DNA from: Paracoccaceae bacterium
GTDB taxonomy: Bacteria > Pseudomonadota > Alphaproteobacteria > Rhodobacterales > Rhodobacteraceae
Length of the DNA stretch: 64,000 bases
Assembly: GCA_022448245.1 (NCBI GenBank)
Contig: JAKVCO010000006.1
Span: 1-64,000 of the forward strand
Direction: 5' to 3'
Part shown: positions 12,353-14,045 of the stretch, in pieces
How the letters are laid out: each line of letters begins with the position of its first letter
Position numbering within the stretch: the stretch's first letter is position 1
The notes under the pieces: generated by a model
The model's database searches: none
What the model was told of the DNA's origin: nothing
Seen by the model: the letters and a program-made list of their open reading frames with translations, nothing else
Translations under genes and position numbers: made by a program

Positions 12353-12943
12353 ATGGCACGGGATACCGCTCAGAAACACGACGCGTTGCGCAAACGGCTG
12401 ATTGACCTGGCCGAGGTGCGGATCGCTGAGGGCGGGCTCGATGTGCTGAAGGCGCGCGACCTTGCGGCGGAGGCGCCCTGCTCCGTGGGCGCAATCTACA
12501 ATGTCTTCGACGACCTGAAGGACATCGCGCTCGCCGTGAACGGGCGCACCTTTCAGCGGATTGGCAAGACGGTGGGTGCAGCCGTTCACGAACGAAACCT
12601 GCCCCCGCGCGACACGCTTATCGCCCTTTCCCACGCCTACCTGCACTTCGCGACTGAGAACCCGCGCCTGTGGCGGGCGCTCTTTGATATCGAGCTGACC
12701 GAAGATGACGACACCCCGGAATGGTACCTGGCAGAGCTGCGACAGCTCTTCGCTTATATCGCCGCCCCGCTGCATGAAGTCTTTCCGGAATACAACGACA
12801 CCGACATCGAGCTGATGACCCGCGCGCTGTTTTCTTCGGTGCACGGTATCGTCCTCCTCGGGCTCGAGCGTCGTATCTCTGGCGTTCCGCCCGAAATGCT
12901 CGAACGCATGATCGAGCTCGTCCTCTCCAACATCGCCGACTAG
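12353..12943 (+). CDS. TetR/AcrR family regulator with WHG-type C-terminus
   Basis: A 196-residue TetR-type regulator. The N-terminal helix-turn-helix is recognisable in [35 protein letters not shown], and the ligand domain carries FSSVHGIVLLGLE, the WHG signature of one TetR C-terminal group. It lies between the dehydratase gene and pspA, all on the plus strand. The three palindromes just after its stop and before pspA are the obvious candidates for its operator, so I infer that it represses the pspA-yiaAB unit; the ligand is unknown. Confidence 0.87.
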   Translation: MARDTAQKHDALRKRLIDLAEVRIAEGGLDVLKARDLAAEAPCSVGAIYNVFDDLKDIALAVNGRTFQRIGKTVGAAVHERNLPPRDTLIALSHAYLHFATENPRLWRALFDIELTEDDDTPEWYLAELRQLFAYIAAPLHEVFPEYNDTDIELMTRALFSSVHGIVLLGLERRISGVPPEMLERMIELVLSNIAD

Positions 12944-12972
12944 CCGTTTCCGTACTGGAAACGAACTATTTT

Positions 12973-13043
12973 TGAACTTTGTTCATAGTATTTATTGAAC
13001 GTCGTTCATGGATACCAATATCCCCATTCATGAACACAGTTCA
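12973..13043 (+). promoter_or_regulatory. triple TGAAC-N3-GTTCA operator before pspA
   Basis: Three 13-bp sites share perfect arms: TGAACtttGTTCA (12973-12985), TGAACgtcGTTCA (12996-13008) and TGAACacaGTTCA (13031-13043). Centres are 23 and 35 bases apart. The second includes TTGAAC (12995-13000), a possible -35 box, with an AT-rich aatatc about 16 bases on as a weak -10; the third would cover the transcribed start region, 16 bases before the pspA ATG. Perfect arms with variable spacers are the expected shape of a dimeric TetR operator. The regulator link is inferred from adjacency. Confidence 0.75.
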
Positions 13044-13059
13044 CAACCGGAGAAACCAG

Positions 13060-13731
13060 ATGCTGACCACACTTCGAACCATCTTCATTGGCGAGAGCCG
13101 CCGTGCAGAAGAAAAGATGCGTGATCACTATGCGCTCGACCTCATCGCCCAGAAGATCCGGGAAACCGAGGACGCACTGAAGGCCGCAAAGGGCACGCTG
13201 GGCGCACTTATCCAGCGACAGCGCAGCGAGACCCGTCAGATCGACGGCCTCAACCGCCGCCTCGTCACGATGACCGAACGCGCTCAAGCCGCTCTTTCGG
13301 ACGACAATGAAACGCTCGCAGCGGAAGCCGCACAGGCCGTCGCCACGATGGAAAACGAGCGAAAGGTCCGTGAAACGACGCTGGAACGGCTCGATCAACG
13401 GATCATTCGTCTCAAAAGCTCCGTCGAAACGATGCACCGCCGCATCATCGACCTCAAGCAAGGTGAGATCGCCGCACGCGCCGCGCGCCATTGCAACGAA
13501 ATCCACCGCCGCATGAGCAGCACCATTGGGAACACCGCCCCTGCCAACGAGGCGCAAAAGCTCATCGACCGCGTCCTCGGTCAAGAAGACAGCTTCGAGC
13601 AGGCCGAGATCATGGACGGCATCAATGCCGATCTCGACCACACGAACCTCGATGATCGCATGGCCGCCGAGGGCTACGGCCCGGCCACTAAATCCACCGC
13701 CGCCGACGTGCTGGCACGCCTGAAATCGTAA
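13060..13731 (+). CDS. pspA: phage-shock protein A homologue (PspA/IM30/ESCRT-III-like)
   Basis: The 223-residue protein is nearly all helix and has the length of PspA. It begins MLTTLRTIFIGESRRAEE, continues as a long heptad-rich coiled coil (residues about 25-145) and ends in a charged tail. PspA-type proteins bind stressed inner membrane and limit proton leakage. ATG 13060 is chosen, since the ORF track extends upstream through the operators. No PspF, PspB or PspC is nearby; control instead appears to come from the TetR gene through the three palindromes. Assignment is by architecture more than by long exact motifs. Confidence 0.78.
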   Translation: MLTTLRTIFIGESRRAEEKMRDHYALDLIAQKIRETEDALKAAKGTLGALIQRQRSETRQIDGLNRRLVTMTERAQAALSDDNETLAAEAAQAVATMENERKVRETTLERLDQRIIRLKSSVETMHRRIIDLKQGEIAARAARHCNEIHRRMSSTIGNTAPANEAQKLIDRVLGQEDSFEQAEIMDGINADLDHTNLDDRMAAEGYGPATKSTAADVLARLKS

Positions 13732-13772: not shown

Positions 13773-14045
13773 ATGTATAACTCTGACAACGGCCTCATCA
13801 TCTTCTTCAACGCAGCCGGCGTGGTTCTTTCCTACGTTATGCTCGGCATCTCGCTGTGGCTTTCCACCGACGTACCTCTCGCCACCAAGGGTTTCTGGGC
13901 CATCGGTATCCTGATGCTGACGCTGAGCCTCGTTAACTTCGTCAAGTTCCGCTTCGATGATCGCATCAGCGAAGACCGCATCACCCAGATCGAGGCAGCC
14001 AAGAACGAGAAGCTGCTCAAGGATTACGTGGGCGGAGAGGAGTAA
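13773..14045 (+). CDS. YiaA/YiaB-type two-helix inner membrane protein
   Basis: A 90-residue protein with two transmembrane helices (IIFFNAAGVVLSYVMLGISLWL and KGFWAIGILMLTLSLVNFVKF), separated by a short loop, and a charged cytoplasmic tail. The LW...KGFWAIGILM pattern with a basic end after helix 2 fits the YiaAB family. AAGGA precedes the ATG by about nine bases. It follows pspA by 41 bases and a terminator closes the unit, so it is probably a membrane partner in the PspA response. No enzymatic role is suggested. Confidence 0.72.
   Translation: MYNSDNGLIIFFNAAGVVLSYVMLGISLWLSTDVPLATKGFWAIGILMLTLSLVNFVKFRFDDRISEDRITQIEAAKNEKLLKDYVGGEE

Follow-up and report, generated by a model that had tools for sequence, protein, structure and literature searches.

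A conserved palindromic array associates a TetR-family protein with pspA and other envelope genes in Alphaproteobacteria

A TetR-type protein encoded directly upstream of pspA in an alphaproteobacterial genome probably represses pspA, the yiaA-like gene that follows it and a wider set of envelope genes, with envelope stress relieving this repression; we infer the binding, the repression and the signal from a comparison of genomes and proteins. What the comparison yields directly is a set of palindromic sites with a fixed geometry, their overlap with a predicted promoter, and the co-occurrence of these sites with the TetR protein independently of pspA. PspA is among the oldest membrane-repair proteins, and the mechanism by which its synthesis is switched on is known for only a few systems.

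The tetR-pspA locus

The window (the whole stretch of DNA analysed, 64 kb) carries, all on the + strand and in this order, tetR, a terminator-like hairpin, three palindromic sites, pspA and a YiaAB-like gene. The 196-residue product of tetR (12353..12943, +), the proposed repressor, belongs to the TetR family by both its helix-turn-helix and its helical C-terminal domain. The C-terminal ligand-binding and dimerisation domain TetR_C_33 is present at 47.9 bits (Pfam cut-off 26.8), TetR_N reaches 19.9 bits, slightly below its cut-off of 24, and relatives of the protein conserve a helix-turn-helix whose recognition helix is of the GAIYN type. The AF2 model is all-helical (pLDDT 95), and the protein matches PDB 3CJD at 222 bits, 56% identity and TM 0.97. 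The C-terminal domain is well conserved, with Y96, W107, P122 and G165 invariant among relatives and with many aromatic positions, as in ligand-binding members of the family. Among the nearer structural or helix-turn-helix neighbours are KstR, FasR, FadR and DesT, lipid-sensing proteins that share the TetR fold, are about 14-22% identical to the window protein, and differ from it in their targets, which belong to fatty acid or sterol metabolism. KstR, FasR and FadR bind acyl-CoA or sterol-CoA compounds, which hints weakly at a lipophilic ligand for the window protein, weakly because many TetR proteins resemble one another. DesT recognises a TGAAC half-site at a spacing different from that of the window sites, a likeness that serves as a lead only.

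The pspA gene (13060..13731, +; ribosome binding site GGAG at 13049..13052, +) encodes a 223-residue PspA/IM30 protein with a full-length match to PF04012 (54.4 bits, cut-off 33.9); the genome search found no other PF04012 gene. The protein falls far below the E. coli-type PspA equivalog TIGR02977 (19.2 bits, cut-off 242.95). It is followed by a gene for a small membrane protein of 90 residues (13773..14045, +) that resembles YiaAB at 20.8 bits, a similarity below the PF05360 cut-off of 26.6. An earlier reading of the sequence alone had named this region pspA-yiaAB; a YiaAB-like gene does follow pspA, but it is a single gene rather than a yiaA-yiaB pair.

Three perfect palindromes lie between tetR and pspA

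The same sequence-only reading had reported three perfect 13-bp palindromes between the TetR gene and pspA, and a scan for perfect matches places them exactly as it had: putative operator site 1 (TGAACTTTGTTCA) at 12973..12985, site 2 (TGAACGTCGTTCA) at 12996..13008 and site 3 (TGAACACAGTTCA) at 13031..13043, none with an assigned strand. TGAAC-N3-GTTCA occurs nowhere else in the window, where 0.06 matches are expected and none of 100 shuffles reaches three; permitting one mismatch adds just two matches, both distant. Since the motif had been picked after being seen, it was compared with every perfect 5-3-5 dyad of the window, and among these 95 dyads only the TGAAC arm recurs three times within 100 bp. 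When the 116-bp intergenic stretch was shuffled 20,000 times, one site arose once and two sites never. Sites 1 and 2 are separated by 2.1-2.2 helical turns, sites 2 and 3 by 3.2-3.3, and sites 1 and 3 by 5.4-5.5.

Elsewhere in the 3.7-Mb genome there are only two perfect sites, and we claim a role for neither: one (C16:4407) lies 15 bp before a 100-residue ORF of doubtful reality and the other (C56:217744) inside an ORF. A match to the alphaproteobacterial LexA-type box, GAAC-N7-GAAC, overlaps site 1 (12963-12977) in the window alone among 70 loci, and is probably due to chance because three such matches fall in the window where 1.9 are expected.

The sites overlap a predicted sigma-70 promoter

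The second palindrome had also been said to overlap a possible -35 element, and relatives bear this out. The likely -35 hexamer, TTGAAC (12995..13000, +), shares its last five bases with the left arm of site 2, and the same hexamer is formed by the preceding base and this arm in 62 of 68 loci. The likely -10 hexamer, AATATC (13017..13022, +), begins 16 bp after the -35, its position and consensus being taken from the 68 relatives, in which mostly TATATC-like hexamers follow TTGAAC at 16-17 bp; the window hexamer itself is a weak match and is absent from the output of a general promoter scan. Site 3 follows the -10 after 6-8 bp in 63 of 68 loci, typically after about 7 bp, and this places it over the expected transcription start. 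In seven loci the dyad of site 2 is lost, and a TTG-type -35 is still kept there. As predicted from these alignments, the pspA promoter is of the sigma-70 type; one putative operator precedes it, a second covers its -35 and a third its start.

A terminator-like hairpin after tetR (12945..12963, +; stem CGTTTCC/GGAAACG followed by AACTATTTTT; fold z-score -2.3) may separate tetR from this promoter, a weak suggestion given that three such hairpins occur in the stretch where 2.5 are expected. Neither a sigma-54 -24/-12 motif (GG-N10-GC) in the tetR-pspA intergenic stretch nor a PspF match above the cut-off in the genome (93% complete) was found, and control of pspA by sigma-54 and PspF was rejected on these two grounds. 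Together with the conserved sigma-70-type promoter they support the independence from PspF that had been proposed from the sequence. Control by LexA as part of the SOS response was likewise rejected, the direct repeat GTTC-N7-GTTC being present in just one of 70 loci, the window's own.

The array is conserved in front of pspA

We sampled 397 genomes of the family, picked without regard to the motif, and relatives of the window PspA are present in 70 of them. Nearly all pspA loci have a TetR relative nearby; tetR shares the strand of pspA in 59 loci (nearly always directly upstream) and is divergent in 10, and the array is retained despite this altered gene order. The yiaA-like gene is kept downstream of pspA in most loci. 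Seventy upstream regions of pspA could be read, 69 from family genomes (the window's included) and one from a named Rhodobacteraceae metagenome-assembled genome (L006); three perfect sites precede pspA in 38 of these loci, two in 28, one in 3 and none in 1. The motif was thus sought where the sequence-only reading had proposed to look for it, and, as 66 of the 70 loci have either two or three perfect sites, its absence from conserved tetR-pspA pairs, which would have spoken against a link, was not observed.

The geometry of the array is fixed: measured between centres, site 2 lies 22 or 23 bp from site 1 and 34 or 35 bp from site 3, and this spacing holds even where PspA is only 25-30% identical. 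The spacer within each palindrome is RNY almost without exception, and the full symmetric site therefore reads TGAAC-RNY-GTTCA; the spacers of window sites 1 and 3 (TTT and ACA) deviate from this consensus. Within the family, arrays are spread over more than 60 genera, and other families of the class have them too.

In one genome (G096, locus L077) pspA contains several stops, tetR is recognisable only in its C-terminal stretch and the second site has decayed, a pattern that seems to fit a joint loss of pspA, tetR and the site array. The sole other genome of the window's genus that was searched (G231) has no match to pspA, the TetR ortholog or the array; the whole tetR-array-pspA unit is therefore variable within the genus.

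The array accompanies the TetR protein with or without pspA

An unbiased scan for arrays, defined as two perfect sites 8-24 bp apart and using no protein information, was positive in 70 of the 397 family genomes, and a reversed control pattern gave none. TetR relatives of at least 100 bits are present in 83 family genomes. Both features occur together in 68 genomes, TetR alone in 15, the array alone in 2 and neither in 312 (Fisher p = 6e-59). Among genomes in which no pspA was detected, the array is present in 8 of 15 with the TetR protein and in 1 of 312 without it (p = 2e-11); one of the 8 (G167) ends at a contig edge that may have cut off pspA. These p-values overstate independence because the genomes are related by descent, in a sample in which nearly every genome comes from a different genus. 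The remaining seven TetR-positive, pspA-less genomes lack tight arrays, and five of them have single perfect sites or perfect sites spaced by 54-55 bp.

In genomes that lack pspA or have tetR elsewhere than beside it, 11 of the loci checked (G026, G080, G133, G135, G172, G218, G243, G272, G335, G338 and G355) carry a perfect site immediately upstream of tetR, as would be expected of a TetR protein that regulates its own gene; in G133 sites precede both the unlinked tetR and pspA. TetR and PspA distances are also correlated (rho 0.82 over 73 loci). Through co-occurrence, geometry and these sites before tetR itself, comparative genomics strongly supports the link between the TetR gene, the sites and pspA that had first been noticed in the window, and provides strong comparative evidence that the window TetR would bind palindromic operators close to tetR itself or to a gene beside it.

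Copies of TGAAC-RNY-GTTCA are numerous in two further genomes, with 26 in G261 and 16 in G113, mostly single and inside ORFs (for example, L185-L191), and with none for the reversed control; both genomes encode a diverged TetR relative of 35-36% identity.

A proposed mechanism and its alternatives

We propose that the product of 12353-12943 is a one-component TetR-type repressor that binds TGAAC-RNY-GTTCA, and that its dimers, occupying the three sites in the tetR-pspA gap (site 1 upstream of the -35, site 2 on the -35 and site 3 on the start point), would block the sigma-70 promoter; pspA and the yiaA-like gene would therefore be expressed little or not at all in the absence of stress. The most likely signal to accompany envelope damage is a lipophilic molecule or a lipid intermediate, which would enter the C-terminal pocket and free the repressor from DNA, upon which PspA would be made and the membrane shored up. 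The ligand control suggested by the sequence-only reading is thus a hypothesis here as well, in a family that has a solved structure (3CJD). In many relatives the TetR protein would also control its own gene and other membrane, phospholipid-synthesis and secreted proteins, and would therefore be the hub of an envelope regulon that extends beyond pspA. The chemical nature of the signal, the binding itself and repression rather than activation are what we infer in this scheme.

Most characterised TetR proteins repress, and the reverse arrangement, in which the TetR protein would serve as an activator or co-activator of pspA with no repression, is improbable. The position of site 1 upstream of the promoter would suit an activator, and this site is among the two retained when site 2 decays; sites 2 and 3, however, overlap the -35 and the start, positions at which a bound dimer would be expected to obstruct polymerase. 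We give just as little credence to the reading that PspA is itself the sensor, binding the TetR protein and controlling its hold on DNA with no small ligand involved. This reading has a precedent in the action of E. coli PspA on PspF, as described in PMC3128695, and would account for the tight tetR-pspA linkage and the correlated divergence of the two proteins. It sits poorly with a conserved, aromatic-rich C-terminal domain like that of ligand-binding members, and the TetR protein and arrays are found without detected pspA in seven or eight genomes, so that PspA is not needed for the system; a role for PspA as an obligate co-repressor was rejected because of the same genomes.

That a different DNA-binding protein reads the array, with tetR a mere neighbour, is very unlikely. 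Binding of the TetR protein to the sites is a prediction, and two genomes (G007 and G090) have arrays with no clear TetR ortholog, but G090 encodes a diverged TetR relative some 2.4 kb away from pspA and the array of G007, with its G+C-rich spacer, may be due to chance. Arrays follow the TetR protein into pspA-less genomes and unlinked tetR genes bear the site themselves, both of which count against another reader, and the rarity of the GTTC-N7-GTTC box argues against LexA in that role. A chance cluster or a functionless local repeat can practically be dismissed, given the expectation for the window and, above all, the conservation of the array across genera and families.

Arrays outside the family and acid induction of pspA in Rhizobium tropici

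A class-wide scan of 289 genomes found arrays in 11, and the same architecture recurs outside the family in G625, G632 and Rhizobium. On Rhizobium plasmids tetR, the sites, pspA and a YiaA-like gene stand together; tetR is divergent and three sites are spaced at 23 and 36 bp in R. lusitanum, Rhizobium sp. 11515TR and R. tropici CIAT 899, and in R. tropici pspA and the yiaA-like gene come next. In Rhizobium sp. 32-5/1 (L207), only two sites, 58 bp apart, are left at pspA, and a second three-site array with the two spacings in reversed order precedes tetR (1700-1766).

Induction of pspA by stress is supported by published data from one of these relatives. In an RNA-seq study of R. tropici CIAT 899 at pH 4.5 (PMC5936775), pspA (RTCIAT899_RS28825, on pRtrCIAT899c) has a log2FC of 4.87 in adapted cells and of 4.42 after 45 min of acid shock, about 20- to 30-fold, and is one of few shock-induced genes. 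The next locus tag, RS28820, has a log2FC of 4.46, and the TetR gene RS28830 is among the differentially expressed regulators, which the authors tie tentatively to efflux (PMC5936775). We equate these three genes with the array locus because their locus tags are consecutive, the plasmid name agrees and pspA has a single place on that plasmid. The membrane-stress switch envisaged for the window thereby gains a link to stress, an indirect one through this record of acid induction; acid may induce R. tropici pspA by another route.

Relation to known systems

PspF-PspABC of E. coli, like the proposed system, governs a member of the PspA/IM30 family whose role is to support the inner membrane when the envelope is stressed, and pspF, like tetR in some loci, can be encoded divergently beside pspA. 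The E. coli regulator, however, works as an activator with sigma-54 and is restrained by PspA, whereas the proposed system has a TetR-type protein and a sigma-70 promoter, a YiaA-like gene beside pspA, and arrays that also occur without pspA. The Lia system of Bacillus (LiaFSR-LiaH) and ClgR-PspAMN of mycobacteria likewise place a PspA-family gene under a stress-responsive regulator, but through a two-component system and ClgR, respectively, rather than a one-component TetR protein. PDB 3CJD, a putative TetR regulator of Jannaschia sp. CCS1, is an ortholog of the window TetR deposited as a structural-genomics entry without an assigned function, for which a function is proposed here.

Known protein families are combined here in a regulatory arrangement of TetR, array and pspA that appears undescribed in the open-access literature. 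A search of that literature found no TetR regulator of pspA, and the operator string itself turned up in unrelated papers only. A paper on a Zymomonas TetR was rejected as a precedent, since PspA figures there only among several changes that followed when an efflux regulator was deleted. TetR and YiaA go unmentioned among PSP partners in the main text of Ravi et al. 2024 (PMC11237479). If the proposal is true, a TetR switch with a clean array, the 3CJD structure and tractable hosts such as R. tropici would make the envelope-stress signal directly testable, with whatever fits the TetR pocket as the way to it.

Candidate targets beyond pspA

The motif had at first been tied to pspA alone; that tie stands, but the motif also marks a predicted regulon beyond pspA. 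The second most common array target, pspA-less genomes included, is a family of multi-helix proteins of about 400 residues ('M.HVVDTE.LL.EG') with no Pfam or NCBIfam match. An array or perfect sites lie upstream of its members in nine genomes, with the array at the gene start (L110, L113, L114, L118, L119, L120, L121, L122 and L125); a search of the window's genome, run without a positive control, detected no copy. In four genomes (G135, G272, G335 and G338) two sites at a distance of 53-54 bp stand before a small secreted protein and a DUF2145 protein. Sites also precede a small hydrophobic protein of about 100 residues before murB in two genomes (G336 and G297), DUF5671 membrane proteins in two (G343 and G355), a DUF2339 protein in one and a VIT/VWA protein in one (G172). 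In other families of the class they lie ahead of genes for CDP-alcohol phosphatidyltransferases (G578 and G632) and fatty acid hydroxylases (G399 and G632). Nearly all of these predicted targets are membrane, lipid-synthesis or secreted proteins, those seen in a single genome being candidates only, and the conserved motif gives a common context to several membrane protein families without known function.

A plausible if tentative reading of these targets is an undescribed alphaproteobacterial envelope-stress regulon under a single lipid-sensing TetR protein, which would combine PspA-YiaA repair, phospholipid synthesis (acyltransferase, CDP-diglyceride synthase, CDP-alcohol phosphatidyltransferase and fatty acid hydroxylase) and unnamed membrane and secreted proteins, and would fill the role that PspF, Lia and ClgR play elsewhere. 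In two genomes tetR is followed by a PlsC-like acyltransferase gene and a CDP-diglyceride synthase-like gene (G172, L152 1599-4014; G243, L154 1341-3639), and these genes may form a phospholipid operon that this regulator controls.
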